Of a stretch of 37,774 nucleotides of DNA, positions 2,778 to 26,550 are shown one piece after another (position 1 is the first letter of the stretch; each line of letters begins with the position of its first letter). The notes beneath the pieces are model-generated. The model saw only the letters and a list, made by a program, of their open reading frames with translations. It did no database searches and was not told where the DNA came from. Source of the DNA: Pseudomonadota bacterium. Its GTDB lineage: Bacteria > Pseudomonadota > Gammaproteobacteria > Burkholderiales > Rhodocyclaceae. The DNA is taken from assembly GCA_018241665.1 (NCBI GenBank), contig JAFEDK010000050.1, positions 1 to 37,774 of the forward strand, in the 5' to 3' direction. Position numbers and translations under genes: made by a program.

Positions 2778-2837
2778 GGGAAGCCTCACTGGGGCGTTGG
2801 TCTGTGGAGCCAGTATCGACACGGCTCCGGCGCGCAA

Positions 2838-2857
2838 CATCGTCCCAACGGACTAAC
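2838..2857 (-). promoter_or_regulatory. Putative operator, site 1 (flavin reductase side)
   Basis: The plus strand reads CATCGTC-CCAACG-GACTAAC, one copy of the 20-bp imperfect palindrome CATCGTC-N6-GACGATG. Its better half-site faces the flavin reductase gene, whose start lies 60 bp away. It is paired with site 2, 50 bp to the right. Confidence 0.55.
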
Positions 2858-2887
2858 GACGGGATCGGCGCGGAAACCGCCGCAGGG

Positions 2888-2907
2888 CCTCATCCAATCG
2901 GACGATG
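2888..2907 (+). promoter_or_regulatory. Putative operator, site 2 (chemoreceptor side)
   Basis: The sequence CCTCATC-CAATCG-GACGATG has its conserved half-site towards the chemoreceptor start, 62 bp downstream. A GCTAGTGT stretch about 20 bp downstream could act as a -10 element. It shares CAATCG in the spacer with the minus-strand reading of site 3. Confidence 0.55.
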
Positions 2908-2968
2908 GGCGGCGCGGCGGGGCTTGCTAGTGTGCGCATCCATCCGGGCTTCCCATGTATGCAACGCC

Positions 2969-4621
2969 ATGTTCGAGAAGATCACCATTGCCCAGCGCCT
3001 GTGGCTGTGGGCCCTGCTGTCGACCGCCCTGTTCCTGGCCGCCGTGGCCTTCGGTTGGTATGGCCTGTTCGAGGCCCGCGAGACCTTGCGTGTCGTCCAT
3101 GAGGAGCGGCTGGCGGCGCTGGGCCGTTTCGAAACCATCCAGCAGAAGCTGCAGGCCAACCGGCGCCTGGTGCTGCTGGCTTTCCAGCTCGATCCGGAAG
3201 GGGGCTTTGCCCGCGCCCACAGCCGACCCTTGAGCCATTATCTGGACGAGATCGAACGCAACAACGGGCAGATCGACGCGCTGTGGAAGCAGTACGCGGC
3301 GACGCCGCACGGCACCGAAGAGGCCCGCCTCGAAAAGGCCTATGTCGAAGCCTATCGGCGCTGGCGCAGCGAGCTCGACGAAGTGCTGGCACCGCTGCGG
3401 ATGGAGAGTTTCCGCCTCAACAATATGACGGCCTTCGTGCAGGGCGGCGAGCCCGCCGGCGAGGCAGCCGCCGTTGCGCTGGGCGCGCTCCACGACTACC
3501 AGGCGGCCGTTACCGCCCAGGACTACAAGGCCGCCGGCGAACGTTACGACTCGACGGTGCTGGCCTACATCACGCTGGCCGTCATCGGAGCGCTGGCCGG
3601 TTCGCTGATGGCCTTCGGTACCCTGCGCCGGATGCGCACCGCCTTCGGCGTGGCGTCCGGCGTGGCGCGGGCGATTGCCGACGGCGATCTGGCCCGGCCC
3701 GTTCCGGTCATGGGCAAGGATGAATTCGGCGTGCTGCTCACCGACGTCGGGCAGATGCGCGACAACCTGCATCGCCTGGTGGATGAAATGCGCGGCCAGG
3801 TCGAGCAGCTGGGCGTCGAGGCGCAGCAGATGGCCGGCACGGCAACCGATGCCTCCGCACATGCGACGGCGCAGGCCGAGGCGGTGAACAGCATCTCGGT
3901 CGCGGCGGCCCAGCTGGCCCGCTCCATCGAACAGGTCGAAGCCCATGCCGACGCGTCCCTGCGCATGAGCCGGGAGTCCTTTGGCCGCTCGGAGGAGAGC
4001 GAGCGCTACATCCAGCGCATGGCCGAGGAGATGGGCGGCGTCGCCCAGGTGGTGACGCAGACGGCCAGCCATGTGCGCGAACTGGACAACCTGTCCGACC
4101 AGATCAGCGGTGTCGTTCGGGTGATCCTCGAAGTGGCCGACCAGACCAATCTGCTGGCCCTCAACGCGGCCATCGAGGCGGCCCGAGCCGGCGAGCAGGG
4201 GCGCGGTTTCGCGGTGGTAGCGGACGAGGTACGGAAGCTGGCCGAGCGCACGTCCTCGTCCACCGCAGAGATCTCGGCGACGATCGCCGACATCCAGCGG
4301 CGCACCCGCAGCGTGTGCGCGACGATGGAGTCCGCCGTCGAGCGGGTGCGCAGTGGCGCGGAGCTGGCTGCCCAGGCCGGCGAGTCGGTGGTCGGCATCC
4401 GCGCCGGCAGCGGCCAGGTGATTGCCGCGGTGGATGGCATCGGCGATGTGCTCAAGGAGCAGGCCGCCGCCACCCGCGAGATCGTCCGCCGCGTGCAGAG
4501 CGTTTCCGACGGCACCACGGCCCTGTCCACGAGCGCCGCACGGAGCGCAGAATCGGCGGCGGGCCTGGACCGGCTGGCCCGGACGCTGGAACGTCTTTCC
4601 GCCCGTTTCCGCTTGGCTTGA
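2969..4621 (+). CDS. Methyl-accepting chemotaxis protein
   Basis: This is a 550-residue chemoreceptor. A first membrane segment lies at about residues 10-32 ([20 protein letters not shown]). A periplasmic helical region of about 150 residues follows, then a second membrane segment ([18 protein letters not shown]), a HAMP linker ([22 protein letters not shown]) and the signalling domain. The highly conserved hairpin tip is intact ([20 protein letters not shown] followed by [17 protein letters not shown]). No C-terminal CheR-binding pentapeptide is present. The ATG at 2969 was chosen because the first membrane helix follows directly; the longer upstream reading adds an unlikely 55 residues. It is the first gene of a unit leading into aldehyde and acyl-CoA dehydrogenase genes and shares an operator-like motif with the steroid genes. 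A role in taxis to steroids is therefore plausible but inferred. Confidence 0.9.
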
Positions 4622-4693
4622 GTTTTTCCGAGCAATTCCTGACAGCCCGATCGTTCGCGGCCGTTCCACCAACCCTGAGGTGAATCGAAGACC

Positions 4694-6124
4694 ATGAGTA
4701 CTCCCAACAGCACTCCGGCCCTTGCCAATATCCTGTCCGCCCAGCAGGCAGCCTTTGCGGCCGCCGGCGCCGTCGATGCGGACACGCGCCGGCGCCGCCT
4801 GCAGACGGCCATCGACCTGCTGGTGAAGTACCACAAGCCGCTGGCGGCGGCGATGGACGCCGATTTCGGCGGCCGCCATCCGGGCTTTTCCTTGATGAAC
4901 GATGTGCTCGGTTCGCTGGCGTCCCTCAAGCATGCCCGCGATCACTTCGAGCCGTGGATGGCACCGGACAAGCGGACGCCCTTTGCGCCCTATGATCAGC
5001 TCGGTGCGGAAGCCTGGGTGATGGTCCAGCCCAAGGGCTCGGTGGGCATCATCGGCACCTGGAACGCACCGCTGTTTACCTTGTTCGCGCCGCTGGCCTA
5101 TGTGCTCGCGGCGGGTAACCGGGCCATCCTGAAGCCATCCGAGGTCGTGCCTCGCACCGCGGCGCTGGTGGCGGAAGCGGTTAGCGACCTGTTCGATCCC
5201 CTCGAAGTGGGGGTCGTGACCGGTGGCCCGGACGTGGGTGCGGCTTTTGCGGCGCAGCCCTTCGATCATCTGGTATTCACCGGCAGCACGGCGGTCGGCA
5301 AGGCCGTGATGCGGGCCGCCGCCGACAACCTGGTGCCAGTGACGCTGGAGCTCGGCGGCAAGTCGCCGACGATCATCGGCCGCAGCGCCGACCTGGCGAC
5401 CGCCGCCTTCCGCATCGCGGCGGGCAAGGGGGCGAACGGCGGCCAGCTGTGCGTCAATCCGGACGTGATCTACGTGGCACGCGAGCAACTGGAATCCTTC
5501 GTCGCCAGCCTGAAGACGGCCTTCGCCGGCTTGTTCCCGACGGCGGCCGGCAACCCGGATTTGACGGCGGTCGTCAATGAACGCCACCTGACCCGTATCG
5601 ACGGCTATGTGGCACAGGCTGCCGCCGCGGGCGCCCGTGTCGAGACCTGTCCCGATGGGGTGATCTCCGGTGACGGTGAGCGCCGTCGCCCGCTGCGCAT
5701 CGTCATCGACCCGCCGACGGATTCGGCGATCATGCGCGAGGAGATCTTCGGGCCGGCGGTCGTTGTGCTCGGCTACGACGACATCGACGCGGTGATTGCC
5801 GACATCAACGGGCGCAGCCGTCCGCTGGCCCTGTATTACTTTGGCGAGGATGCGGCCGAACAACAGAAGGTGCTGGCGCACACGCTGTCCGGCGGCGTAA
5901 GCATCAACGAGGTGATGTTCCACGCGGCCATGCACGACGCGCCCTTCGGCGGTGTCGGCGCCTCCGGCATGGGGCGCTACCACGGCCGCGAAGGCTTCCT
6001 CGAGTTCAGCCACCTGCGCACCGTGTTCAAGGCGCCGGCCTACGATCCGCGCCGGGAGTGGGGCATGCTGCCGCCCTACGGCGAGCATTTCCTGGCGGCG
6101 ATGGAAGCGCAGGTCACACCGTGA
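4694..6124 (+). CDS. Aldehyde dehydrogenase, coniferyl-aldehyde dehydrogenase-like subgroup
   Basis: This is a 476-residue NAD(P)-dependent aldehyde dehydrogenase. Visible catalytic elements are Asn124 (GTWNAPL), Glu219 (LELGGKSP) and the nucleophile Cys253 (GGQLCVNPD). FTGSTAVGK (about 195-203) is the cofactor-binding loop, and EEIFGPAVVV and APFGGVGASGMGRYHG are typical late motifs. The length and the C-terminal SHLRTVFKAP fit the coniferyl aldehyde dehydrogenase-like branch. It follows the chemoreceptor by 72 bp with a GAGGTG ribosome binding site, and its stop overlaps the GTG start of the next gene. With two acyl-CoA dehydrogenase genes downstream, it could oxidise a steroid side-chain aldehyde to an acid before CoA activation, like Sad in bile-acid degraders. 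That substrate is inference. Confidence 0.85.
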   Translation: MSTPNSTPALANILSAQQAAFAAAGAVDADTRRRRLQTAIDLLVKYHKPLAAAMDADFGGRHPGFSLMNDVLGSLASLKHARDHFEPWMAPDKRTPFAPYDQLGAEAWVMVQPKGSVGIIGTWNAPLFTLFAPLAYVLAAGNRAILKPSEVVPRTAALVAEAVSDLFDPLEVGVVTGGPDVGAAFAAQPFDHLVFTGSTAVGKAVMRAAADNLVPVTLELGGKSPTIIGRSADLATAAFRIAAGKGANGGQLCVNPDVIYVAREQLESFVASLKTAFAGLFPTAAGNPDLTAVVNERHLTRIDGYVAQAAAAGARVETCPDGVISGDGERRRPLRIVIDPPTDSAIMREEIFGPAVVVLGYDDIDAVIADINGRSRPLALYYFGEDAAEQQKVLAHTLSGGVSINEVMFHAAMHDAPFGGVGASGMGRYHGREGFLEFSHLRTVFKAPAYDPRREWGMLPPYGEHFLAAMEAQVTP

Positions 6125-7254
6125 GCGCCTTCGCCATTCCCACCGATGAGCAGCGCGCGCTGCGGGAAACCGCGACGGCCTTCCTGGCCGGGCACGCCAA
6201 TGCGCGCAGCGGCCGCGATAGCGACGCTGCCTTGTGGCAGACCATGGCCGAATTGGGCTGGCCGGCAGTGCTGGTGCCAGAGGAATTCGGTGGTCTGGGC
6301 CTCGGCATCGCGGAAGCTGTCGTCTTGCTGGAAGAAATGGGGCGCAGCCTGACGCGCTCGCCATTCTTCTCCACGGTGGCGCTGGCTCAGCCCCTGTTGC
6401 TGCATGCGGCCACTGAAGAGGCCTGCCAGCGCTGGCTGCCCGGGCTGGCGGAAGGTTCGGCGACAGCGACGGTTATCGCGGCCGCCGGCCTGTCGCCGGC
6501 GTTTCGCCACGAAGAGCTGGCGATCCGCGCCTGTCGCCGCGGTGACCGCTGGGAGCTGCAGGGCTGTGCGGAGCAGGTTCTTGATGGCGACGGCGCCGAC
6601 ATGGCCTTCGTCGTCGCCGCGCTGGAGGACGGCGTCTGCGGGCTGTTCCATGTTCCCGCTGACACACCGGGTCTGCAGCGCAGCGCGCTGGAAAGCTGGG
6701 ACTCGACCCGCCCGCAAGGCCGCTGGTGTTTCGACGCTGTGCCGCTGCCGCTGGAGGCGCGCATCGACCGGCCGGCTGGTTTCGTGGCTGGCGTTGTCCA
6801 TGCGCTGCAACTCGCTGCGCTGCTGCTGGCGGCGGAGCAGGTCGGCGGCGCGGCCCGTTGCCTGGAGCTGACCGTTGCCTATACCGGCGAACGTCGCCAG
6901 TTCGGGCGTGTCATCGCCGGTTTCCAGGCCGTCAAGCATCGCTGCGCGCAGATGATGGTGAAGCTGGAGACGGCCCGCTCGGCGCTGCAAGGTGCGTTGG
7001 CGGCGCTGGAACTCAATGAACAGGCCGTGGCAAGCGAGATCGCCGTGGCGCGGGTGCTGGCCACCGAGGCTTATCGCTTCTGCGCGGCCGAGGCTATCCA
7101 GCTGCACGGCGGCGTGGGTTTTACTTGGGAATACGATCCCCAGCTGCATTTCAAGCGCGCCCAATGGGCTTCCCACTGGTTCGGCGACGCAGACACGTGG
7201 CGCGACGCGGTAGCCGACGGTGTGCTGGGTGGCGTGACGGAGAGACATCAATGA
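6121..7254 (+). CDS. Acyl-CoA dehydrogenase, subunit 1 of a probable heteromeric pair
   Basis: This is a 377-residue acyl-CoA dehydrogenase. Motifs include a PEEFGGLGLG N-terminal helix region, GERRQFGRVIAGFQAVKH (about 278-295) and, near the C-terminus, AIQLHGGVGFTWEYDPQLHFKR. The Glu of WEYD aligns with the catalytic base position of medium-chain enzymes. The central FAD-contacting region is poorly conserved compared with the next gene. The GTG at 6121 overlaps the previous stop (GTGA), so translation is probably coupled. Its own stop overlaps the next start (ATGA). Such tandem pairs in steroid degraders form alpha2beta2 complexes sharing FAD at the interface (ChsE1-ChsE2 type). It probably desaturates a steroid side-chain or ring-fragment acyl-CoA. 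Confidence 0.85.
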   Translation: MSAFAIPTDEQRALRETATAFLAGHANARSGRDSDAALWQTMAELGWPAVLVPEEFGGLGLGIAEAVVLLEEMGRSLTRSPFFSTVALAQPLLLHAATEEACQRWLPGLAEGSATATVIAAAGLSPAFRHEELAIRACRRGDRWELQGCAEQVLDGDGADMAFVVAALEDGVCGLFHVPADTPGLQRSALESWDSTRPQGRWCFDAVPLPLEARIDRPAGFVAGVVHALQLAALLLAAEQVGGAARCLELTVAYTGERRQFGRVIAGFQAVKHRCAQMMVKLETARSALQGALAALELNEQAVASEIAVARVLATEAYRFCAAEAIQLHGGVGFTWEYDPQLHFKRAQWASHWFGDADTWRDAVADGVLGGVTERHQ

Positions 7255-8414
7255 ACAAGGCGATGCCCGACGAACAGCAATTCCGGGCCGAAGTGGCCGA
7301 CTGGATGGAGCGCCACCTGTGCGGCCGCTTCGCGCCGCTGCGCCACCGGGGCGGCCCGGGGGACGAAATGGCCTATCCCGAACTGCGCCGCGAGTGGGAA
7401 GCCGAGATGGCCGCCGGCGGCTGGATCGGTCTCGGCTGGCCGCAGGCCCACGGCGGCCGCGATCTGCCGCTGGCGCTGCAGGTGGCTTTCCATGAGGAAT
7501 ACGCCCGCGCCGGCGGCCCCGGCCGCATGGGGCACATCGGCGAGACGCTGCTGGCACCGACCTTGATCGCCCACGGCACGCCGGAGCAGCAGGCGCGCTT
7601 CCTGCCCGGCATCCGCGACGGGCGGGTGTTCTGGTGCCAGGGTTACTCCGAGCCGGGCGCCGGCTCTGACCTGGCCGCCATCTCCACCCGCTGCTGGCTG
7701 GAGGACGGCGAATGGCGGCTGCGCGGCCAGAAGTTGTGGACCTCGCTGGCCCACGAATCCGAGTGGATCTTCGTGCTGGCCCGCAGCACGCCCGGCAGCG
7801 TCGGGCGGGAAGGGTTGAGCTTCCTGCTGGTGCCGCTTGATCAGCCTGGCGTGGAGATCCGCCCGATCCGCCAGATGACCGGCGAAGCGGAGTTCAATGA
7901 AGTCTTCTTCGACGACGCCCGCACGGCCGCCGACTGCATTGTCGGCAAGCCCGGCGACGGCTGGCGCATCGCGATGGCGCTGCTCGGCTTCGAGCGCGGC
8001 TTGTCCACGCTGGGCCAGCAGATGCACTTTGCCCATGAGCTGCAGTTGCTGGTGGCGGCGGCCCGCAGCTGCGGCGCCGACCGGGACGTGGGGGTGCGCC
8101 GGCGTATCGCCGATGCGTGGATCGGCCTGCGGGCGCTCCGCGCCAACGCGCTGCGCATCTTCGCTCGCGGCGAAAACGCCACCGGACCCGAAGCGCTGGT
8201 CTACAAATACGCCTGGTCGAACTGGCACCGGGATCTGGGCCAGCTGGCGATGGACGTGATGGGAATTGCGGGGGACGTGCCGGCCAGCGAAGACCCGTGG
8301 CGCCGGCTGCAGCAGGTGTTCTTCTTCTCCCGCGCCGACACGATCTACGCCGGGACCAACGAGATCCAGCTCAACATCATCGCCGAGCGCGGCCTGGGGA
8401 TGCCCAAGGGCTGA
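7251..8414 (+). CDS. Acyl-CoA dehydrogenase, subunit 2 of a probable heteromeric pair
   Basis: This 387-residue protein carries the FAD and substrate-binding middle domain that its partner lacks (WCQGYSEPGAGSDLAAI near residue 125, then GQKLWTSLAHESEWIFVLAR). It also has the C-terminal ADTIYAGTNEIQLNIIAERGLG. The latter is the FadE17/FadE26-like ending common among mycobacterial and proteobacterial steroid enzymes. The start at 7251 overlaps the upstream stop by ATGA, strong evidence of co-translation with the first subunit. A 12-bp-stem terminator follows the stop. The acyl-CoA dehydrogenase call is certain. Heterotetramer formation and a steroid substrate are inferred from pairing and context. 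Confidence 0.87.
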   Translation: MNKAMPDEQQFRAEVADWMERHLCGRFAPLRHRGGPGDEMAYPELRREWEAEMAAGGWIGLGWPQAHGGRDLPLALQVAFHEEYARAGGPGRMGHIGETLLAPTLIAHGTPEQQARFLPGIRDGRVFWCQGYSEPGAGSDLAAISTRCWLEDGEWRLRGQKLWTSLAHESEWIFVLARSTPGSVGREGLSFLLVPLDQPGVEIRPIRQMTGEAEFNEVFFDDARTAADCIVGKPGDGWRIAMALLGFERGLSTLGQQMHFAHELQLLVAAARSCGADRDVGVRRRIADAWIGLRALRANALRIFARGENATGPEALVYKYAWSNWHRDLGQLAMDVMGIAGDVPASEDPWRRLQQVFFFSRADTIYAGTNEIQLNIIAERGLGMPKG

Positions 8415-8453
8415 GCGGAGCGGGCTTCGGCCTGCTTGACCTCAAAGCCCACT

Positions 8454-8490
8454 CGCCGCCAGCCGTGTACCGGCTGGCGGCGTTTCCATT
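8454..8490 (+). terminator. Rho-independent terminator
   Basis: A perfect 12-bp stem (8454-8465 with 8471-8482, CGCCGCCAGCCG and its complement) has a 5-nt loop and is followed by TTTCCATTT. It lies between the convergent acyl-CoA dehydrogenase and ketosteroid dehydrogenase genes and most likely ends the rightward transcript. Confidence 0.8.
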
Positions 8491-9963
8491 TCAGCGCTGG
8501 GCGGCCGAGCGTCCGGCCTTGCGCCCGAAGAAGGTCGAATCGCCGAGGGACAGGCCGGAGCTGTAGCCCTCGCCCCAGCGCGGCAGGCCGCAGGCGGTAC
8601 GCCCTGCAGCGAACAGGCCGGCGATCGGGCGGCCGTCCGCATCGAGCACCTCGCCACCCGGCAGCGTGTGGAGGCCGCCGAGGGTGAAGGCATGGGCCTC
8701 CAGATCCTCGCTGCAATAGCTGAGGGCGGCAAAGGGCGGCACGCTCAGCGGCCGCAGCCACGGCGCAGCCTTGTGGAAGTAGGGGTCCTGGCCTTCGGCG
8801 GCGCGCGCGTTGAATTTTTCGACCGTGTGCTGCAGCGCGCCGGCGGGAATGCCCAGCTCCTGCTCGATCTCCGCCCACGTCTCGCCGACCGCGGCGATGT
8901 CGACGTCGGGCTTGATGACCGGCCGGCCGAAGATCTCGTTGTCCACCAGCAGCCAGGCCCGGCCGCCCGGCTGGCGCAGCACGTAGTGGCCGACACGGCC
9001 GTGGTAGGCGTCCTCGTTGATGAAGCGCTCGCCGCGCTCATTGACGAAGATCCCCTTCACCAGCGATTCGGGCGGAAAGAAGGGCACCGTCGCAAAGAAC
9101 TGATCCATGTGGATCGCCGTTGCGCCGACCGCCATGCCCATGCGGATGCCCGAGCCGTCGTCGTTGCCGCCGCTCACTTCCTTCACGCAGGCCAGTGCGG
9201 CCGGGGCGAAGCGGGCCACCATGTCCCGATTGACGATGAAGCCGCCGGCCGACAGCACCACGCCCTTCAGCGCGCGGACGAAGCGCACTTCACCGTCGAT
9301 GCGCGCCACCACGCCAGCCACGCCGCCGTCGCGATCCACCACCAGCGTCAGCGCACGGGCGTTGTAGCGGATGTCGGCACCAAAGGCTGCGGCCTGGGCG
9401 CACAGGTGCTCCATCAGCACCTTGCCGCCGCCCCAGCCCTTGAACTGCACCGTATGCCCGCGCGGTGCCGGTTTGGCGGTGGCGCTGAAGGGCCAGGCCA
9501 ACTCGTTGCCGGACCACAGCAGGGTGTCGTCGGTGGTCGGCTCGATCCACTTGCCGGGTAGGTAGCTGCCCTTGAAGGGCACGCCGAGTTCCTGCAGCCA
9601 GCGGAAGTGGGCTTCGGCGCCTTCCGCATAGACGCGCACGCGCTCGCCGTCGGCGCCGGGGCCGCCGCTCAGGGTCAGGTAGGCGGCCAGGTCCTCGGTG
9701 CTGTCCTCGAAACCGTTGGCGCGCTGGACGGAGGTGCCACCGCTGCCGCCCACGTAGACCTCGCCGCCCGACAGTGCGGCACTGCCGCCCCCGGCCGAGG
9801 CGACTTCCAGCACGCACACACGGGCGCCAGTTCGGCGGGCCTCGATGGCTGCACAACTGCCGGCGGCGCCGAAGCCGACGACGAGCACGTCGGTCTCGAT
9901 GTCCCAGGCCGGGACGTCCTCGACGCGGCAGGGACGGGAAGGGGTGTAGGTGACGTTCTGCAT
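8491..9963 (-). CDS. 3-ketosteroid Delta4-(5alpha)-dehydrogenase-like flavoprotein (TesI/Kst4D type)
   Basis: This is a 490-residue FAD-dependent oxidoreductase of the fumarate-reductase/KstD superfamily. The N-terminal dinucleotide motif is VVGFGAAGSCAA (about 28-39), with SGGEVYVGGSGG after it. In the Rhodococcus RHA1 Delta4-(5alpha) enzyme, Tyr319, Tyr466 and Ser468 are the described active-site residues. Here Tyr320 (NEDAYHG), Tyr467 and Ser469 (GEGYSSGLSLGD) occupy the same relative positions, each shifted by one. The YPGAG signature of Delta1-dehydrogenases is absent. The enzyme would introduce the C4-C5 double bond in 5alpha-3-ketosteroids. It is transcribed divergently from the Delta1-dehydrogenase gene, a neighbour pairing like TesI/TesH of Comamonas. 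A related FAD-binding dehydrogenase with another steroid substrate is the alternative. Confidence 0.8.
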   Translation of the reverse strand: MQNVTYTPSRPCRVEDVPAWDIETDVLVVGFGAAGSCAAIEARRTGARVCVLEVASAGGGSAALSGGEVYVGGSGGTSVQRANGFEDSTEDLAAYLTLSGGPGADGERVRVYAEGAEAHFRWLQELGVPFKGSYLPGKWIEPTTDDTLLWSGNELAWPFSATAKPAPRGHTVQFKGWGGGKVLMEHLCAQAAAFGADIRYNARALTLVVDRDGGVAGVVARIDGEVRFVRALKGVVLSAGGFIVNRDMVARFAPAALACVKEVSGGNDDGSGIRMGMAVGATAIHMDQFFATVPFFPPESLVKGIFVNERGERFINEDAYHGRVGHYVLRQPGGRAWLLVDNEIFGRPVIKPDVDIAAVGETWAEIEQELGIPAGALQHTVEKFNARAAEGQDPYFHKAAPWLRPLSVPPFAALSYCSEDLEAHAFTLGGLHTLPGGEVLDADGRPIAGLFAAGRTACGLPRWGEGYSSGLSLGDSTFFGRKAGRSAAQR

Positions 9964-10034
9964 GGGCTTGGCTCTCCGTTCTGATGGGCAGGGTTTTCTC
10001 CAGCGTGATCGTGGCGGCAGCGCGGGAGGCGCCG

Positions 10035-10054
10035 CATCGCCCGATTGAACGATG
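10035..10054 (-). promoter_or_regulatory. Putative operator, site 3 (Delta4-dehydrogenase side)
   Basis: The sequence CATCGCC-CGATTG-AACGATG is the most symmetrical copy of the 20-bp palindrome, with CATCG and CGATG as perfect outer arms. It lies 71 bp upstream of the Delta4-dehydrogenase start. Site 4 begins 51 bp to the right. Confidence 0.55.
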
Positions 10055-10085
10055 TCGTGCGCCCGCCGGGGGATGCCCGGTTCGG

Positions 10086-10105
10086 CCTAGTCCGCCTTGA
10101 CGATG
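10086..10105 (+). promoter_or_regulatory. Putative operator, site 4 (kstD side)
   Basis: The sequence CCTAGTC-CGCCTT-GACGATG has its conserved half towards kstD, 59 bp before its GTG start. Its left half-site CCTAGTC is identical to that of site 6. Confidence 0.55.
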
Positions 10106-10164
10106 GCCGGCCGCCGGGCAAGCGGGAACATCCGCTGCGGCTAACCATTTCCGAGGACCCCAGC

Positions 10165-11889
10165 GTGAGTGCACAAGAACAGAACCAGACCGCCTTCGAT
10201 GTCATCGTCGTCGGTTCCGGCGCCGGCGCGATGACGTCCGCCGTGATCGCCGCCGACCACGGCCTGTCGGTGCTGGTGGTGGAGAAGAGCGACAAGTTCG
10301 GCGGCACGTCCGCCATTTCCGGCGGCGGCATCTGGATTCCCAACAACCCGCACTTCAAGCGCATCGGCGGCAAGGACAGTTTCGACAAGGCATTGCAGTA
10401 CGTGCGTGCCGCGACGGCCGGCCGGGTGGACGAGCGTCGCCTGCGGTCCTACCTCGACAACGCGCCGAAGATGATCACCCACCTCGAGACCAAGGGCCGC
10501 TTGCGCTATGCGGTGGCCGACAAGTATCCCGATTACTACCAGCATCTCCCAGGCGCGCTGCCCGGCGGGCGCACGCTGGACCCGGAGCTCTTCGACACCA
10601 GCCTCCTCGGCGACGAGCTGCGCCATCTGCGCACGCCGTCGCCGTCGACGCTGCTGATGGGGCGCATCGCATGGACGGCTCGCGACGCCCACAAGGCGAT
10701 GGCCAAGGAGCACGGCTGGCGCCTGAAAGTGATGGGCCTGATGCTGCGTTACCAGCTGGACCTGCGCTGGCGGCGCAAGACCCGCAACGATCGCCGTGCC
10801 GCCCTCGGCAGCGCGCTGGTCTGCGCGCTGCGCCGCACCCTGATGGATCGCCAGGTGCCCCTGTGGCTTAACACCGATTTCCAGGACCTGATCCGCGACG
10901 GCGAGCGCGTGACCGGCATCCGCGTCAAGCGGGATGGCCGTGAGCTGCATCTGCAGGCCCGCCGCGGCGTGATTCTCGGCGCCGGCGGTTTCGAGCAGAA
11001 CCAGGCCCTGCGCGACAAGTACCTGCCCAAGCCGACCCGCACCGGCTGGAGCGCCACGCCGCCCGGCAACAACACCGGCGCGGCGCTGGAAGCCGGGCTG
11101 GCGGCCGGTGCGGCCACCGACCTGCTCAACTGGTCCTGGTGGGCGCCGACCATCACGGTGCCGAAGGAGGAGAAGCCCCGCGGCGTGTTCGCCGAGCGGG
11201 CCTTTCCGGGTGCCATCGTCGTCAATGGTCTGGGCCGGCGCTTCGTCAACGAGGCCACGCCCTACCTGGAGTTCGTGGACGCCATGTACCGCGACAACGG
11301 CGCCAGCGGCGGCAAGTCGATCCCGGCGTGGGTGATCTTCGACGCCCACTTCCGCTTCCACTACGCGATGGGCCCGCTGATGCCGGCCCAGGTGATGCCG
11401 GACGGCCGACTGCGCAAGGAATGGCTCAATACCGTCTACTGGAAGGCCGACACCCTGGCCGACCTGGCGCGCCAGATCGGCGTCGATGCGACCGGCCTGG
11501 AAACCACCGTGCGGACCATGAACGACTACGCCCGGACCGGCGTGGACAAGGATTTCGCCCGCGGCGGCAACGTCTTCGATCGCTACTACGGCGACGTGAA
11601 CGTGAAGCCCAACCCGTGCCTCGCGCCGATTGCCAAGGGGCCGTTCTACGCGATGCGCCTGGACGCCGGCGACATCGGCACCAAGGGCGGCCTGCTCACC
11701 AACGAGCATGCCCAGGTCGTCCGTCCGGACGGCTCGCCGATCAGCGGCCTGTACGCCATCGGCAACACCTCGGCGTCGGTGATGGGCACCAGCTACCCGG
11801 GCGCCGGCGCCACCCTCGGCCCGGCGATGACCTTCGGCTACATCGCGGCGAACCACATTGCGGCTAACCATATCGCCTCGGGCAACTGA
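10165..11889 (+). CDS. kstD: 3-ketosteroid Delta1-dehydrogenase
   Basis: This is a 574-residue FAD enzyme that introduces the C1-C2 double bond in 3-ketosteroids, setting up ring opening. The FAD motif VVGSGAGAMTSA lies at about residues 15-26. TSAISGGGIWIPNN (48-61) follows, a hallmark of the family. Close to the C-terminus, Tyr544 and Gly548 in TSYPGAGATLGPA correspond to Tyr487 and Gly491 of the Rhodococcus KstD1 active site. YPDYYQHLPG near residue 121 is also conserved. The GTG at 10165 is preferred over an earlier ATG because GAGGAC lies about 9 bp upstream and the N-terminus then fits family length. It heads an operon with the SDR and CoA ligase genes. A near-perfect duplication gives AANHIAANHI at the very C-terminus. 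Confidence 0.93.
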   Translation: MSAQEQNQTAFDVIVVGSGAGAMTSAVIAADHGLSVLVVEKSDKFGGTSAISGGGIWIPNNPHFKRIGGKDSFDKALQYVRAATAGRVDERRLRSYLDNAPKMITHLETKGRLRYAVADKYPDYYQHLPGALPGGRTLDPELFDTSLLGDELRHLRTPSPSTLLMGRIAWTARDAHKAMAKEHGWRLKVMGLMLRYQLDLRWRRKTRNDRRAALGSALVCALRRTLMDRQVPLWLNTDFQDLIRDGERVTGIRVKRDGRELHLQARRGVILGAGGFEQNQALRDKYLPKPTRTGWSATPPGNNTGAALEAGLAAGAATDLLNWSWWAPTITVPKEEKPRGVFAERAFPGAIVVNGLGRRFVNEATPYLEFVDAMYRDNGASGGKSIPAWVIFDAHFRFHYAMGPLMPAQVMPDGRLRKEWLNTVYWKADTLADLARQIGVDATGLETTVRTMNDYARTGVDKDFARGGNVFDRYYGDVNVKPNPCLAPIAKGPFYAMRLDAGDIGTKGGLLTNEHAQVVRPDGSPISGLYAIGNTSASVMGTSYPGAGATLGPAMTFGYIAANHIAANHIASGN

Positions 11890-11930
11890 ACGCGCAACCC
11901 ATAAGAAACGACCCAAAAAGGAGACGCAGC

Positions 11931-12692: not shown

Positions 12693-12725
12693 GCCGTCGT
12701 CCGCAACTTTCAAATCCATTCCGCC

Positions 12726-14327
12726 ATGCCAGCCTCCATGCCCGACCTGCCGATCCCGGCCATTGCGCCGACCATTCCCGCGCTGCTGTTTTCCGCCGCC
12801 CGTCACCACGCGTCCCGTATCGCCATCGAGGAAAACGGCCAGCGCATCGCCTACGCCGAGCTGCCCGACCGGGCGCTAGCGGTGGCGCGGGCGTTGATGG
12901 CCTGCGGTGTAGAGCCCGGTGACAAGGTGGCAATCTGGGCGCCGAACTGCAGCGAGTGGGTGCTAGCGGCCCTCGGCGTGCACTGCGCCGGCGCCGTGCT
13001 GGTGCCGATCAATACCCGCATGAAGGGCCAGGAGGCCGCCGACATTCTGGCCCGCAGCTACGCGCGGGTGCTGGTTTGCATCGGCGAATTCCTCGGTGCC
13101 GACTATCCGGCCATGCTGGCACCGCACCGTCCGCCAACGCTGGAACGGGTCGTGGTCCTCGGTGACGGGCATCCGATCGGGGAGGGCGCACAGACTTGGG
13201 CGGATTTCCTGGCCGGCGGCGCCCAGGTGGCCGGGTCGCTCGCCCGCGCCCGTGCGGAGGCGGTGCAGACGCGGGACACCGCCGACCTGATGTTCACCTC
13301 CGGCACCACCGGCAAGCCGAAGGGCGTCATGCACGCCCACGGGCCGACCTTGCGGGCCTTCGCCGAGTACGTGCGGATCATCGGTCTGCGCCCCGGCGAT
13401 CGCTACCTGATCGTCAATCCCTTCTTCCACACCTTCGGCTACAAGGCCGGCTGGGTGACCTGCCTGATCGCCGGGGCGACCATCCTGCCGCACCCGGTTT
13501 TCGACGCGGAAGCCGTGTTCCAGCGCATCGAGGCTGACCGCGTGACGGTGCTGCCCGGTCCGCCGACCCTCTACCTGTCGATGCTGGCCCATCCGCGGCT
13601 GGCCGAGGCGGACCTGTCCAGCCTGCGCATCGCCGTCACCGGCGCCGCGACCATTCCGCCGGTGCTGGTCGAGCGCATGCGCAGCGAGCTGGGCTTCGAG
13701 GTGGTGACCACCGCCTACGGCCTCACCGAATGCGGCGGGCTGGCGACGATCTGCGACCCGGACGATGATGCCGGGACCATCGCCGGCACCAGCGGCAAGG
13801 CCATCCCAGGCACCGAGTTGCGCATCGTTGACAGCCATAACCAGCCCTTGCCGGCGGGCGAGGCGGGTGAAATCTGCCTGCGCGGCTTCCACGTGATGCA
13901 GGGCTACTTCGAGAATCCCGAAGCCACCGCCGAGACCATCGATGCCGACGGCTGGCTGCACACCGGCGACATCGGCACGCTGGACGCACGCGGCTACCTC
14001 CGTATCACCGACCGCCTGAAGGACATGTTCATCGTCGGCGGCTTCAACTGCTATCCGGCCGAGATCGAGGCCGCGCTGACGGAGCACCCGGCCATCGCCC
14101 AGGTGGCGGTGATCGGTGTGCCAGACGAGCGGATGGGGGAGGTGGGCTGTGCCTGCGTCGTGCTGCGCGCTGGCGCTGCGCTGGATGAAGCCGGCCTCAT
14201 CGCCTGGTCGCGCAACCGCATGGCCAACTACAAGGTACCGCGCCTGGTGCGTTTCTTCGATGCACTGCCGGTGAATGCGTCCAACAAGGTGGCCAAGAAC
14301 GAACTGCGTGGTCGTATGGCGGTCTGA
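12726..14327 (+). CDS. FadD3-like acyl-CoA synthetase (steroid C/D-ring acid CoA ligase)
   Basis: This is a 533-residue adenylate-forming enzyme that activates an acid to acyl-CoA with ATP. The P-loop [10 protein letters not shown] is at 191-200, YGLTECGG at about 339, the hinge GWLHTGDIG and [20 protein letters not shown] follow, and the catalytic lysine is near residue 521 (NKVAKNEL). [13 protein letters not shown] recalls FadD3, which activates the indanedione propionate (HIP) left after rings A and B are removed. It is third in the kstD operon. No clear Shine-Dalgarno sequence precedes 12726 or the alternative ATG at 12738, so the start is uncertain by four residues. Another steroid or fatty acid substrate remains possible. 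Confidence 0.83.
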
Positions 14328-14412
14328 GCGGTCGGGATCTTTCTTTGAAAGGGCCGTCGGCAGGCGAGGAACTGCCGGCCCGGTGGAAATACTTCACTGT
14401 TCCTCATTCGTG

Positions 14413-14475
14413 GATGAATTAGAGTACGAATTAAAAATAACTATAAAAATTATAAAATCGATACTCGGAGGCGTT
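14413..14475 (+). promoter_or_regulatory. AT-rich putative promoter region of the sensor kinase gene
   Basis: About 50 bp of strikingly AT-rich DNA (AATTAAAAATAACTATAAAA and following) interrupts the GC-rich surroundings just before the sensor kinase, ending in a CGGAGG ribosome binding site. TATAAA or TATAAAAT could serve as a -10 element. No operator palindrome of the steroid type is present. Confidence 0.4.
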
Positions 14476-14476
14476 C

Positions 14477-16836
14477 ATGTCTGGTGTGACGGCAGGCTGG
14501 TTGCCCGGAAGGGGCAGGATCGCGCTGATCCTGTTGCTCGTCGCCCTATTGACCAGCGCATCCTGGCTCACTGCGTCGGTCGTTACCGACCGCATGATGG
14601 ACGTGGCCTACCGGCAGCAGCTCCAGTTGGCACAGCAGCAGCTCGACAGCCTGAACGACAGCATCGACGATGCGCTGTCGTCCCTGGCTGGCATCCCGGC
14701 GGTCCTGGGGGTGGATGGATTCATCGGTGCCGAGCTCGCACGTCAGGGGGCGCGGGCGGAAGAGTCTGAGCTGCCGGTCGCCGAGCGGAAGCGCCGCTGG
14801 GAGCGTGACCCTTTCCTCTTGCGCGTCGGCAAGAGGCTTGATTCGGCGGCGACCAGCCTTAAGGCTGATGCCCTGTGGGCGCTGAATGCGCGGGGCGATT
14901 GCGTTGCGTCCAGCAATTTCGATCAGCCGGTCAGTTTCATCGGGCCCAATTATTCGGACCGTGCCTACTTCCGCGATGCCATTCAGGGCAGGCAGGGCCG
15001 GCAGTATGTGGTTGGCAAGCTGAGCCGGGTTCCCGGCCTGTACTTCTCCTCGCCAGTGATTCTGGATGACAAGGTCGTCGGGGTCATTGTGGTCAAGCGG
15101 GATCTCACCCACCTGGAAGGCTGGACACGCTATATCGATGCCTTCATCACCGACGCGCATGGTGTTGTTGTGCTGGCCCGCAACAAGTCCCTCGAGTTCC
15201 GCACCCTGCCGGGGATGGACCTGTCGCGGATGCCAGAGCGCGAGCGCAGCGAAGTCTATTCGCGCACTGACTTCAAGCCCCTCGCATTGACGCGTTTCGA
15301 CGCGAAGAACTATGCGCAGCTGATGGTACTCGACGGCGACCGGGCGACCCCTTACCTGTTTCTCAGTGCGCAGGAAGCCCGTTACGGATTCACCGTGCAC
15401 CTGCTGCAGCCTGTGCCTGAAATGCAGCGGCTGGCAACCCAGCGTGGCTCCTTGTTCATCCTGCTGGCGGTGTCGGCCAACCTGCTGGTGGTGACGGTGC
15501 TTTCCATCGCCTTGCACTTCTCGTCCCTCAACAAGGCACGGCGCGAAGCCTTGCGGGTCAATCAGGAGCTCGAAGGGCTGGTGGCGCAGCGGACCTCGGA
15601 ACTCCGGCAGGCCAAGGACATGGCAGAGGCCGCCAACGAGGCCAAGAGTAACTTCATTGCCAATATGAGCCACGAGATCCGTACGCCAGTGAACGCCATC
15701 ATCGGGCTGTCCGGCATCCTGCGGCGTCGCCACGAGGACGACGAAGCCGCCGACAAGCTCGGCAAGATCGAGGCGGCCGGCAAGCTCGGCAAGATCGAGG
15801 CGGCCGGCAAGCATCTGCTGTGCATCATCACGACATCCTGGACATCTCGAAGATCGAGGCCGGCAAGCTGGTGCTTGCCGAGGAGCATTTCGCCATCCGC
15901 ATGCTGGCGTCGTCGGTTGTCGCCATGCAGGCGGATCTGGCACGAAGCAAGCACATCCGTCTCGAGACGGAAGCGGATCCATTGCCCGACTTCGTGGTCG
16001 GCGACCGCACGCGGCTGATCCAGGCCTTGCTGAACCTGGTGAGTAATGCGGTCAAGTTCACCGATACGGGTTCGGTGACGGTACGGATGCTGCGGGAGGA
16101 TGAGGACGAGACGGGGGTCCGGATCCGCTTCGAGGTCGTCGATACCGGTATCGGTATCGCGCCCGACGTATTGGCGACCCTGTTCAGCCCCTTCAGCCAG
16201 GCCGACTCGTCCACCTCCCGGCGATATGGTGGCACGGGCCTCGGGCTAGCGATCACCCGGCGACTGGCCCAGCTGATGGGCGGAGACGCTGGCGCCGAGA
16301 GCCAGCCGGGGGCCGGCAGCACCTTCTGGTTTACGGCACGTCTCGCCAAGCCGGTGGCCGACTGTGCCGAGCCGGCGGCACATATCCCGGAGAACGCCGG
16401 TGACGCCGTACGCCGCCGCTTCGCCGGCTGCCGGATCTTGCTGGTCGAGGACGAACCGGTCAATCAGCTCGTGGCCGAGGAGAACCTGCTGGAGTTCGGA
16501 CTGGCTGTCGATATCGCACCCGACGGTGTCGAGGCCCTGGACATGTTGGCGCGGGCTACTCCCGATACCTATGCGCTGATTCTCATGGACATGCAGATGC
16601 CGCGCATGGACGGCCTGGCAGCAACGCGGGCGCTCCGGCAAATGCCGGGGTTCAGCGGCATCCCGGTGATCGCGATGACCGCGAATGCTTTCATGGAGGA
16701 CCGGACGCGCTGCCTCGATGCGGGCATGAGCGACTTTCTCGCCAAACCGGTCGATCCTGCCGTGATGGGCGGCGTCCTGCTTCAATGGCTGCCGCACGCA
16801 AGCGCCGGCCGTCCGACGACGCGACCGGAGTTCTGA
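14477..16836 (+). pseudogene. Hybrid sensor histidine kinase with a frameshift (periplasmic sensor, kinase, receiver)
   Basis: Two overlapping frames (14477-16018 and 15820-16836) together give one hybrid kinase. The first carries a membrane helix (about 13-35), a periplasmic region of about 280 residues resembling dCache domains, a second helix ([21 protein letters not shown]), a coiled coil and the HisKA box with His399 ([13 protein letters not shown]). The second carries the end of HisKA ([12 protein letters not shown]), the ATPase with [19 protein letters not shown], and a receiver with [10 protein letters not shown]. The frame changes at about 15830, where ATCATCA-CGAC lacks one base compared with the IINDILD codons expected there. 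A 27-bp perfect tandem duplication lies just before it. Either the gene is broken or the sequence has an error. It stands alone after the CoA ligase. Confidence 0.8.
15755..15808 (+). repeat. 27-bp perfect tandem duplication inside the kinase HisKA region
   Basis: Positions 15755-15781 and 15782-15808 are identical, each encoding KLGKIEAAG. Related kinases have this segment once. The duplication is in frame, but a one-base loss follows about 22 bp downstream. Confidence 0.92.
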
Positions 16837-16844
16837 AGCCGCCG

Positions 16845-17648
16845 TCAGCGCCCCTCGAAGCGGGGCGGGCGTTTTTCGATGAAGGCCTGCATGCCTTCCT
16901 TCTGGTCGCGGGACGCGAAGAGCAGGGCGTTGGCGCGCCGCTCCAGCGCCAGCGCGGTGTCGAGGGAGGCGTCCACGCCGGCCAGGATCACCTCCTTGAT
17001 CTGCTCGGCGGCCAGCGGCGGCATGGCGGCGATGCGTCGGGCCAGCGTGAGGGCGGTGTCGTGCACTTCGGCATCCGGCACCACGTCGCTGACGAGGCCG
17101 GCCACCCACGCCTCGTGGGCGTTGATCGGTTCGCCGGTCAGCGCCATGCGCATCGCCTTGACCTTGCCGACAGCCCGCACCAGGCGCTGGGTGCCGCCGA
17201 TGCCGGGCATGATGCCGATGCGGATTTCCGGCTGGCAGAAGCGCGCCCCTTCGCCGGCGACGATCAGGTCGGCCAGCATCGCCAGCTCGCAGCCGCCGCC
17301 GTAGGCATAGCCGCACACGGCGGCGATCACCGGCTTCGGGCAGTGCTGGATCGGCGCCCACACCCGTTCGGTGTGACGGCGCAGGATGTCGATGGCGCCG
17401 ACGCCGGCCATGCTCTTGATGTCGCCGCCCGCCGCAAAGACCTTGTCGCCGCCGGTGAGCACGATGCAGCGCACGCTGTCGTCGTCGGCCAGTTCGGCAA
17501 AGTGGCGGGCGAGCAGGGCCTGGAGCTCCAGGCTGAGGGCGTTGGTGGCATCCGGGCGGTTGAGGCGCAGCACGGCGATGCCGTCTTCGGGGCGTTCGAG
17601 GAGGACCGGCGGCGCAGCGGTGAGGTCTGCGCTGGAAGCGTGGGACAT
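16845..17648 (-). CDS. Enoyl-CoA hydratase/isomerase (crotonase family)
   Basis: This is a 267-residue crotonase. The oxyanion-hole segment AAGGDIKSM (72-80) and the two catalytic glutamates are present: Glu121 in YGGGCELAMLAD and Glu141 in QPEIRIGIMPGIGGTQRL. It would hydrate a 2-enoyl-CoA during beta-oxidation of a steroid side chain or ring remnant. The ATG at 17648 is preceded by AAGGAAA. The open frame continues far upstream through the transporter gene, but only as a GC-rich antisense reading. It lies 29 bp after the MFS transporter gene on the same strand and probably shares its transcript. Substrate is inferred from context. Confidence 0.9.
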   Translation of the reverse strand: MSHASSADLTAAPPVLLERPEDGIAVLRLNRPDATNALSLELQALLARHFAELADDDSVRCIVLTGGDKVFAAGGDIKSMAGVGAIDILRRHTERVWAPIQHCPKPVIAAVCGYAYGGGCELAMLADLIVAGEGARFCQPEIRIGIMPGIGGTQRLVRAVGKVKAMRMALTGEPINAHEAWVAGLVSDVVPDAEVHDTALTLARRIAAMPPLAAEQIKEVILAGVDASLDTALALERRANALLFASRDQKEGMQAFIEKRPPRFEGR

Positions 17649-17677
17649 GGGGTTTCCTTCGGGAAGAGTCGGTGGGG

Positions 17678-18985
17678 TCACACCACGGCGGCAGCCAGGC
17701 TGCGCTGCTGGCGGAAACGCGGAATGGCCATCAGCAAGCACAGCACCGTCACGCCGTAGAGGCTGACGATCGCCGCCAGCGCGTAGCGCAGCGCGTCGGC
17801 GCCGAGGCCCGGCGTCAGCAGGTCGCTGAGGCCGCCGGCGAGGATCGGCCCAAGGCCGACGCCGAGCAGCGTTATCGACATCACGAACAGGGACGTGGCC
17901 TGGGCCAGGCGCTGGGGCGGAAAGAGGTGGCTCATGGCGCCGAAGCAGGGCACCGACCACCAGGTCGCCGTGAAGCTGAAGGCCAGATAGAACAGGAACG
18001 CCTCGGGCACCGGCAGGCCGCCGACGTGAAAGGCAATGCCCGCCGGCCACAGGTAGAAGGCCACGCCCAGCGGCACGCTGAGGCTGCACGCGATGGCCGC
18101 AACACCGAGCTGCCAGCCCCGGTCGCGTCTGATGAGGCGGTCGGTCACGGCACCGCAGGTGAGGGTGCCGATGGTGGACATCAGCCCGCCGCCGAGGCCG
18201 ACCAGCAGGCCGGCCTGTTTCACGTCGAGGCCGTGGCTGCGGATCAGGAAACTGGGATTCCAGGTGCCCATCGCGTAGCCGGTGACGGCTGCTGCCGTGC
18301 CGGCGGCAATCACCCACAGGAAGGACGGCGTGCGCAGCAGCGTGGCGAGGGTGGTGGTCCACGCCTCGCCGTCGTCGGTTTTGCGTCGAGCGGCCGGGCG
18401 GGCCGTACGTACCGTCAGTGCCAGCAGGGCGCCGAGCAGCACGCCCGGCGCGCCGATGGCGATGAAGGCGATGCGCCAGCCGTAGGTCTGCGCGATCCAG
18501 CCGCCGAGGCCGAGGCCGATCACCGCGCCGAGGCTGGGGCCCATCATGAACACCGCCAGCGCCGTCGAGCGGCGCCGTTCCGGATACAGCTCCGACACCA
18601 TCGCCACCGACGGCGCCGTGCCGCCGGCTTCGCCCACCGCCACGCCGATGCGGCACAGGAGCAGCAGCGCGAAGCTGGTGGCCAGCCCGCACAGCATGGT
18701 GGTGGCGCTCCATGCGATGCAAGCCAGCGCCACCACCGGCTTGCGGCCGATGCGGTCGGACAGGCGGCCGAGGGGAAAGCCGAACAGCGTGTAGAAGATC
18801 GCGAAGGCGACGCCGGACAGCAGCCCGATCTGGGTGTCCGAGATGGCGAACTCGGCCTTGATCGGCTCGACGAGGATCGAGATCACCAGCCGGTCGATGT
18901 AGTTGAACACGTAGATGGTGGCGAGCACCGCCAGCGCGTAATGGGTGCGCCAGGTGACGGGCGGGTGGGGGAGGTCTGGCTTCAA
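17678..18985 (-). CDS. MFS transporter (spinster-like)
   Basis: This is a 435-residue membrane protein with about 12 hydrophobic segments. Family marks are YIDRLVISILVEPIKAEF after helix 1, GRLSDRIGRKP (the loop 2-3 MFS motif) and GVAVGEAGGTAPSVAMVSELYPERRRSTAL. These fit the spinster-like MFS branch often linked with aromatic or steroid catabolism. It is the first gene of a leftward unit with the enoyl-CoA hydratase and lies opposite an SDR gene across a shared promoter region with two operator-like sites. Uptake of a steroid or export of an intermediate is plausible. The substrate cannot be determined from sequence. Confidence 0.88.
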   Translation of the reverse strand: MKPDLPHPPVTWRTHYALAVLATIYVFNYIDRLVISILVEPIKAEFAISDTQIGLLSGVAFAIFYTLFGFPLGRLSDRIGRKPVVALACIAWSATTMLCGLATSFALLLLCRIGVAVGEAGGTAPSVAMVSELYPERRRSTALAVFMMGPSLGAVIGLGLGGWIAQTYGWRIAFIAIGAPGVLLGALLALTVRTARPAARRKTDDGEAWTTTLATLLRTPSFLWVIAAGTAAAVTGYAMGTWNPSFLIRSHGLDVKQAGLLVGLGGGLMSTIGTLTCGAVTDRLIRRDRGWQLGVAAIACSLSVPLGVAFYLWPAGIAFHVGGLPVPEAFLFYLAFSFTATWWSVPCFGAMSHLFPPQRLAQATSLFVMSITLLGVGLGPILAGGLSDLLTPGLGADALRYALAAIVSLYGVTVLCLLMAIPRFRQQRSLAAAVV

Positions 18986-19038
18986 GGCTGCGCTCCGACA
19001 GGAAGAGTGCCCATGCTGTGGCGCCGGCCGCCGGCCGG

Positions 19039-19058
19039 CATCGTCCGTTCAGACCAGC
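19039..19058 (-). promoter_or_regulatory. Putative operator, site 5 (MFS transporter side)
   Basis: The plus strand reads CATCGTC-CGTTCA-GACCAGC. The perfect half-site CATCGTC faces the transporter gene, whose start is 53 bp away. Site 6 begins 26 bp to the right, closer than in the other two pairs. Confidence 0.55.
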
Positions 19059-19064
19059 CCGCCG

Positions 19065-19084
19065 CCTAGTCTCCTCGGACGATG
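19065..19084 (+). promoter_or_regulatory. Putative operator, site 6 (SDR side)
   Basis: The sequence CCTAGTC-TCCTCG-GACGATG has its conserved half towards the SDR gene starting 102 bp downstream. Its left half matches site 4 exactly. Confidence 0.55.
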
Positions 19085-19186
19085 TTGCGGCATGGCCCGG
19101 CGGGGAATGATCGGTGCCGTCAGGGCGTTGCGGCCGTTTGCCGGGCGCCCCTTCCGACCCCACCACATTCGCTGAAGGAGATCCGC

Positions 19187-26289: not shown

Positions 26290-26550
26290 GACATCCTTCT
26301 TTCTTTATCAACCGCTGGCGCTTGCATGCATCCTGCGCCCTGGGGCAGCGTCTCACCTCAAGATGGGCACTCGCTATGAAGTGCTGCACTCGCCGCCGGA
26401 TTCCGCGCAAGCTCGGAACTAGCCGGACTAAACGGACTCTGCATTCTCAGGCGACGACGTTTGCGGCACCCATCGCCGCGGCCGGCGTCATACATGCCAT
26501 GACGTTCCGCCCGGAGCGCCGTTTTTTCCACCCCAGTCAAAGGAGCAATC

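Follow-up and report, generated by a model that had tools for sequence, protein, structure and literature searches.

A probable 20-bp operator in the steroid gene regions of a Rhodocyclaceae genome, probably read by a LuxR-type activator of the TesR/TeiR kind

Putative operator sites in the window and in the genome

The stretch of DNA studied here (the window, 37,774 nucleotides; contig JAFEDK010000050.1 of assembly GCA_018241665.1) is an entire contig, called C45 in the following, of a bacterium of the Rhodocyclaceae whose genome of 5.43 Mb is divided into 55 contigs. It carries genes of a steroid cluster with three divergent promoter regions, and an earlier note on its sequence had described in each of these regions two copies of a 20-bp imperfect palindrome, CATCGTC-N6-GACGATG. 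All six copies (2838, 2888, 10035, 10086, 19039 and 19065) were found where the note had put them and with its spacings of 50, 51 and 26 bp. The distance from motif end to called gene start is 54-103 bases for all six, close to the 55-105 bp that had been claimed, with gene starts taken from a simple script for calling open reading frames (ORFs) that could be some codons off. No site fits the pattern exactly; of the 14 defined positions, 2 or 3 deviate in each. At up to three mismatches the window contains 15 matches, compared with a mean of 2.65 and a maximum of 6 in 100 shuffles; eight of the nine further matches lie inside ORFs, and the ninth, at 26346, is intergenic and has no GAC core.

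The sites are better described by an oriented, asymmetric consensus, YTAGTCC-N4-GGACGATG, read toward the gene. We laid out 22 placements, comprising all listed matches with up to two mismatches on C45 and on the first 92 kb of another contig of this genome (C53:1-92 kb) as well as both readings of 10035. Twenty of them point at an ORF start 54-156 bases off, all with the same asymmetric element; the exceptions are 10035 read in reverse and a placement within a gene, C53:66152. Each copy of a divergent pair thus faces its own gene, and a pair therefore stands for two promoters in opposite directions. The exception is 10035, whose best reading faces away.

A matrix built from 121 sites of other genomes places the six sites at ranks 1-6 in the window (Table 1), followed by 9.3 bits for 2888 read in reverse and 8.8 bits at 30389. 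This ranking is not fully independent, because the 121 sites were chosen with a pattern derived from the present genome. Apart from the reverse reading of 2888 every other placement in the window scores 8.8 bits or less, in agreement with the observation that no copy precedes the sensor kinase genes or YidB. Five of the six sites are strong and 10035 is weak; its stronger score is on the strand pointing away from its gene, and the reading that faces the gene has no -10.

A genome search with NTAGTCC-N4-GGACGATG finds 6 exact matches, one on C45 and five on C53:1-92 kb. A further 12 matches differ at one position, and seven of them are on these two stretches. In total 13 of 18 matches fall into stretches that together make up 2.4% of the genome; where the C53 stretch begins and ends was chosen once the sites were known. 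The tally was restricted to one mismatch because the counts at two and three mismatches are swamped by chance matches. The remaining five comprise four in ORFs and one between convergent genes. This last copy (C3:4825-4844), outside the steroid regions and with one mismatch, is nearly symmetric.

Promoter geometry

For the flanks of the motif we collected 228 distinct contexts with up to one mismatch from related genomes, from G093 (a further genome of the same order) and from the present genome, coding sequence not being filtered out, and reduced them to 134 non-redundant ones with flanks less than 60% identical. With the first T of the motif counted as 0, there is an A at offset 39 in 104 of the 134 contexts and a T at offset 43 in 96, both being present in 95. 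The same pair occurs in 36 contexts at the next-best offset and in at most 12 elsewhere (median 4). In the present genome 14 of 20 sites have both bases, the median over offsets being 0. The two positions correspond to the two key bases of the sigma70 -10 hexamer, which in this conserved arrangement starts 20 bases past the motif end. In the window the exact signature accompanies four of the six sites (2838, 2888, 10086 and 19039), 19065 has it one base further on and 10035 lacks it. No TTGACA-like -35 consensus is seen in the aligned contexts. If the transcription start is deduced from the fixed -10, it comes to lie near position 50, and relative to it the motif is centred near -41.5. Judged from the sequence, this is the position of a class II activator and not that of a repressor lying over the -10.

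On C53 a single palindrome (C53:4752-4771) stands between divergent short-chain dehydrogenase (SDR) genes, with TAGACT at the conserved distance on both sides, and may serve both SDR promoters.

The likely regulator

Two genes with a GerE domain over the PF00196 cut-off are found in C53:1-110 kb. Each encodes a protein of 381 aa with a C-terminal helix-turn-helix (HTH); the proteins are 66% identical as a whole and almost identical in the HTH. A third, distant LuxR paralogue (C53:60962-62104) is 38% identical, and one TetR gene (C53:72476-73123) belongs to the same steroid region. C45 has no GerE gene, so the regulator genes lie outside the window. Both of the similar LuxR genes stand in same-strand runs behind a site, C53:392 being followed by 552-1336-2476 and C53:87971 by 88072-88824-89881 (the regulator gene of the latter run spans C53:89881-91026), and the circuit would consequently feed back on itself.

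In Pfam (E 0.001) the regulator gives only GerE and a sub-threshold HTH_30, with neither a kinase nor an autoinducer-binding domain; its NCBIfam hits are all below cut-off, and a sequence search of the PDB with the regulator profile gave 0 matches. The fold predicted for the homologue from Zoogloea dura combines an alpha/beta portion with a PAS-like one and the HTH (predicted local distance difference score, pLDDT, 70.6; predicted template modelling score, pTM, 0.47). Among the 50 best Foldseek rows GAF and PAS proteins prevail, with template modelling (TM) scores by query of 0.18-0.39. We read no function from this search, because the similarity is at the level of domains only and the whole-chain TM is low.

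The recognition helix IRRNTARAHLRSIFSKTGV (IRRNTARAH) is common to both similar copies of the present genome and to proteins from Zoogloea, Thauera, P. fragi, Vibrio and the tesR position of G093. It differs in the third copy of this genome, in the second copy of G093 and in the Cupriavidus, Burkholderia and Sphingobium proteins.

Conservation and co-occurrence

A scan of a genome collection (84,980 species) with the regulator listed matches at 80 loci, so that there are at least 80. Among them are relatives from Zoogloea (83-84% identity), from Aromatoleum, Azoarcus, Thauera, Parazoarcus and some metagenome-assembled genomes (72-77%) and from Pseudomonas (60-68%). Around the listed loci (1.50 Mb) there are 42, 137 and 98 sites at 0, 1 and 2 mismatches, compared with 0, 0 and 23 for the reversed pattern. 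A whole-genome search at up to one mismatch found the motif in 17 of 17 genomes, with 210 matches against 49 for the reversed pattern; each genome exceeds its own control, one of them (G201) only with 6 against 5.

An independent sample consisted of 200 genomes of the order, the present one and 199 others. Only G093 of the 199 has the regulator at 45% identity or more (50%), and 12 others reach 24-31%. A close HsaC is likewise confined to G093 (64%), one other genome having 38%. Two exact motifs also occur only in G093; four others have one each, while the reversed control gives 3 across the whole sample, and one of these four (G052) has in addition a 27% homologue of the regulator. In G093 a run of 18 same-strand ORFs (at least 80 aa, greedy pick) leads from the HsaC/TesB gene, with an operator in front, to a terminal LuxR gene; in the present genome the regulators are elsewhere in the cluster and there is no tesB-to-tesR arrangement. 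Sixteen of the 48 matches of G093 at up to two mismatches are within 2.756-2.927 Mb, 4% of its genome. The clustering in G093 is in line with a 120-kb mega-cluster described in the literature (PMC13101464).

Individual promoters can be followed between genomes. The HsaC/tesB promoter carries TAGTCTCAACGGACGATG in three genomes (the present one, Zoogloea dura and P. fluorescens PS910) and TAGTCTCAATGGACGATG in the fourth, G093, so that the spacer too is almost unchanged. At the KstD promoter the site is TAGTCCGCCTTGACGATG here, and TAGTCCGCTTTGACGATG precedes the best match of the gene both in Zoogloea dura and in P. fluorescens PS910. As a site sequence, ACGTCCAAAAGGACGATG, which stands before an MFS gene here (C53:64747), recurs in one Aromatoleum locus, one Azoarcus locus and G093. 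Of 216 distinct sites in relative genomes, 193 have a downstream ORF similar to a C45 or C53 protein. Zoogloea dura has a site, TAGTCCGATCGGCCGATG, that points away from its KstD site and is about as far from it as 10035 is here. The ORF behind it has no match among the C45 and C53 proteins, and 10035 can therefore not be called its decayed orthologue.

Homologues of the regulator are also found on other replicons. A Vibrio alfacsensis plasmid from turbot gut (NZ_CP140104.1) encodes one of 55% identity behind genes for the beta subunit of an electron transfer flavoprotein (ETF) and a FAD-binding protein. It has TAGTCTCAATGGACGATG before the regulator run and two more sites at up to two mismatches (control 0). 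The plasmid seems to carry a steroid or bile-acid catabolic cluster, and this points to transfer between bacteria. Five sites at up to two mismatches (control 0) are found on a Cupriavidus necator replicon that encodes a 42% homologue. On a Sphingobium plasmid a 34% homologue is encoded about 5.5 kb from a gene annotated as 3-oxosteroid 1-dehydrogenase, and there the symmetric TAGTCC-N4-GGACTATG occurs twice together with two GGACGATG forms. The Burkholderia arboris relative (44.6%) was set aside, its 2 matches at up to two mismatches hardly exceeding the 1 of the control.

Interpretation and alternative regulators

We put the probability at roughly four in five that a LuxR-type activator of the TesR/TeiR kind uses the sites as its operators. 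It is assigned to this class by its HTH type, the location in the cluster and the gene order of G093. The sites, their orientation, the fixed -10, the extent of the regulon, its conservation and the co-occurrence with a LuxR gene are results of computation. From these we infer binding, activation rather than repression, a ligand, the operon structure and the acting paralogue. The reader would be a 381-aa protein encoded on C53, with a GAF/PAS-like sensor part and the C-terminal GerE HTH. Its dimer would bind the asymmetric element, which takes the place where a -35 box would otherwise stand, and recruit sigma70 RNA polymerase to the -10 at fixed distance, that is, by class II activation. The trigger would be a sensed steroid or steroid breakdown product, divergent operons would use one site per direction, and the two similar regulator genes, under their own site-headed runs, could provide feedback.

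Several points weigh against this interpretation. The site at 10035 may not work, six of the 20 sites of this genome are without the exact -10 signature, and at three mismatches the genome count (1082) is barely above that of the reversed pattern (994). Co-occurrence in the 17 genomes is by design, as all were reached through the regulator and share ancestry, and independent co-occurrence rests on one genome of 199, G093, whose whole-genome count at up to two mismatches is 48 against 43 for the control. Only 90 of the 193 ORFs mentioned above have a best match in the present genome that carries a site itself; the largest other groups belong to C53:98529 (49), the SDR gene at 966 in the window (30) and C53:62133 (14), none with a site of its own. 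Three LuxR paralogues are present, each a candidate for binding. Co-variation of helix and box is only suggestive, because Cupriavidus has a changed helix and yet similar GGACGATG sites. The account of TeiR as a membrane kinase (PMC6678751) is ill-suited to simple class II activation, and a LuxR-type repressor has also been reported in C. testosteroni (PMC8700777).

It is very unlikely that the sites instead belong to a TetR-type repressor like KstR/KstR2 or EdcR, which would block the promoters until a steroid ligand arrives. The C53 steroid region does contain its one TetR gene, and steroid catabolism is under the control of TetR repressors in actinobacteria (PMC6678751) and Caenibius (PMC8700777). 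However, the site is near -41.5 and not over the -10 or the start, and a -35 consensus is missing. Moreover, a close TetR orthologue (at least 64%) exists in only 6 of 18 motif-bearing genomes, three others having weaker ones (up to 37%) and nine, including G093, none at E 1e-20, and in Zoogloea dura the TetR gene is on another contig (C12) than the clustered sites (C11 and C16). Very unlikely indeed is an arrangement in which the third LuxR paralogue is the main reader and other promoters are left to the similar pair. The third gene does belong to the C53 region, and several relatives have extra copies at 37-41%, for which orthology to it is not assumed, but its helix is SSRHTVRSQ and not the one common to Zoogloea, Thauera, P. 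fragi, Vibrio and the tesR-position protein of G093.

Least probable seems a two-component system, in which the hybrid kinases of the window would act on a response regulator that reads the operator. The hybrid kinase genes are there, and some response regulators carry GerE domains. A description of TeiR as a kinase also exists (PMC6678751, PMC8399759). Against this, the kinase genes have no site in front, GerE genes are absent from C45, and the two in C53:1-110 kb are without a receiver domain. A search of C45 and C53:1-110 kb for a receiver-GerE regulator as reader found none.

Relation to known regulators of steroid degradation

The LuxR-type activator favoured here resembles TesR/TeiR of Comamonas testosteroni in its LuxR-type HTH and its location in a steroid cluster. 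TesR/TeiR is a positive regulator of steroid genes (PMC6678751, PMC6895838, PMC8700777). The 18-ORF run of G093, with HsaC/TesB first and LuxR last, is like the tesB-tesR region of C. testosteroni TA441, for which a 2004 paper, listed among the references of both PMC6678751 and PMC13101464, announces in its title "18 putative genes from ... tesB to regulator gene tesR". For TeiR kinase activity is reported, and the protein is called a polar membrane protein; for the regulator here Pfam gives no kinase domain, and the fold predicted for the Zoogloea homologue has GAF/PAS-like parts and an HTH. The earlier note had proposed a dedicated, possibly undescribed regulator. A dedicated regulon with its own operator is borne out by the clustering, the fixed -10 and the recurrence before orthologues; "undescribed" is probably wrong in view of the LuxR gene in a TesR-like position in G093. 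The regulator type itself is known. The literature searched, with partial coverage, gives no operator for TeiR-like regulators; the original TeiR paper or other subscription papers may describe one.

In Pseudomonas stutzeri Chol1, compared here by description only, there are likewise two TeiR-like genes in a steroid cluster, e.g. C211_RS11295, and deletion of one delays cholate degradation according to unpublished data cited there (PMC8399759). The same paper calls the regulatory mechanisms of steroid degradation largely unknown and gives no operator for the Chol1 regulators. It has been claimed that tesR-like genes occur only in C. testosteroni (PMC6895838); the relatives of the regulator in Zoogloea, Thauera, Pseudomonas and others speak against this claim, if these proteins are of the tesR type.

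KstR and KstR2 share with the present system a regulon of dispersed steroid operons; the KstR operator core reportedly differs from the present motif. They are actinobacterial TetR repressors and thus belong to another protein family (PMC6678751). EdcR of Caenibius tardaugens also has a palindromic operator in steroid promoters, but it is a TetR repressor whose operator TnnCnnTACnAnTnGTAnnGnnA overlaps the -10 (PMC8700777), while the present site has another sequence and is near -41.5. The LuxR box of quorum sensing is a 20-bp imperfect palindrome about 42 bases before the start and serves class II activation, and our sites resemble it in length and position. The regulator here differs from quorum-sensing LuxR: Pfam gives no autoinducer-binding domain, and the predicted sensor part is GAF/PAS-like.

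Slightly less than even odds may be given to a wider proposal. One old, self-feeding circuit of a GAF/PAS-LuxR regulator and a 20-bp box would run steroid catabolism across beta- and gammaproteobacteria and, in altered form, in alphaproteobacteria, and would have moved on plasmids (Vibrio alfacsensis). The box would be mostly GGACGATG where the helix is IRRNTARAH and mostly symmetric GGACTATG with IAENTVRAH (Sphingobium), and TeiR would then be a direct class II activator, not mainly a kinase, which also controls the chemotaxis receptor.

With the site, the promoter geometry and a probable reader, the regulon would become predictable from sequence in Zoogloea, Thauera, Aromatoleum, Pseudomonas and the Vibrio plasmid, and whether TeiR is a direct activator or a kinase becomes a testable question. 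The element offers a testable control sequence for a pathway with poorly known regulation and promoter parts for steroid biosensors.

Genes behind the putative operators

The window features are collected in Table 1. Among the C53 genes scanned, those behind sites encode SDRs, an alpha/beta hydrolase, an AMP-binding enzyme of the CoA ligase type, an MFS transporter, a DUF1329 protein, a YCF48/BNR protein, an acyl-CoA dehydrogenase, an ETF subunit and a thiolase. An HsaC-like extradiol dioxygenase gene, the first of a long same-strand run, is also behind a site. The names HsaC and KstD are given by similarity, because the named NCBIfam model tops the list in each case yet stays below its cut-off.

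Table 1. Operators, -10-like hexamers and neighbouring genes in the window (matrix scores in bits)
Feature	Position	Strand	Remarks
Operator	2838..2857	-	faces flavin reductase gene; gene strand TTAGTCCGTTGGGACGATG, exact refined consensus; 30.6 bits
-10-like hexamer GATACT	2812..2817	-	at conserved distance from site 2838
Operator	2888..2907	+	faces chemotaxis receptor gene at 2969; 17.0 bits
-10-like hexamer TAGTGT	2928..2933	+	for site 2888
Weak site	10035..10054	-	adjoins FAD-dependent oxidoreductase gene 8491-9963; 10.7 bits on other strand; no -10 toward gene
Operator	10086..10105	+	faces 3-ketosteroid 1-dehydrogenase-like gene at 10165; 25.0 bits
-10-like hexamer GAACAT	10126..10131	+	for site 10086
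Operator	19039..19058	-	faces MFS transporter gene 17678-18985; 19.7 bits
-10-like hexamer CAGCAT	19013..19018	-	for site 19039
Operator	19065..19084	+	faces SDR gene at 19187; 25.9 bits
-10-like hexamer AATGAT	19106..19111	+	for site 19065; one base beyond usual distance
Target gene, flavin reductase domain protein	1782..2777	-	best NCBIfam p-hydroxyphenylacetate 3-hydroxylase reductase, with the HsaB model in third place; none reaches its cut-off
Target gene, methyl-accepting chemotaxis receptor	2969..4621	+	TarH, HAMP, MCPsignal
Possible target, FAD-binding dehydrogenase	8491..9963	-	domain and NCBIfam searches
Target gene, 3-ketosteroid 1-dehydrogenase-like	10165..11889	+	best NCBIfam 3-oxosteroid 1-dehydrogenase, below its cut-off
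Target gene, MFS transporter	17678..18985	-	domain search
Target gene, short-chain dehydrogenase	19187..19921	+	domain and NCBIfam searches

As the chemotaxis receptor gene (2969-4621) is behind an operator, movement toward steroid may be co-regulated with its breakdown. On the plus strand of the window, two overlapping frames, 14477-16018 with a dCache-HisKA part and 15820-16836 with a HATPase-receiver part, together cover 14477-16836 and look as if one hybrid kinase gene had been split by a frameshift.

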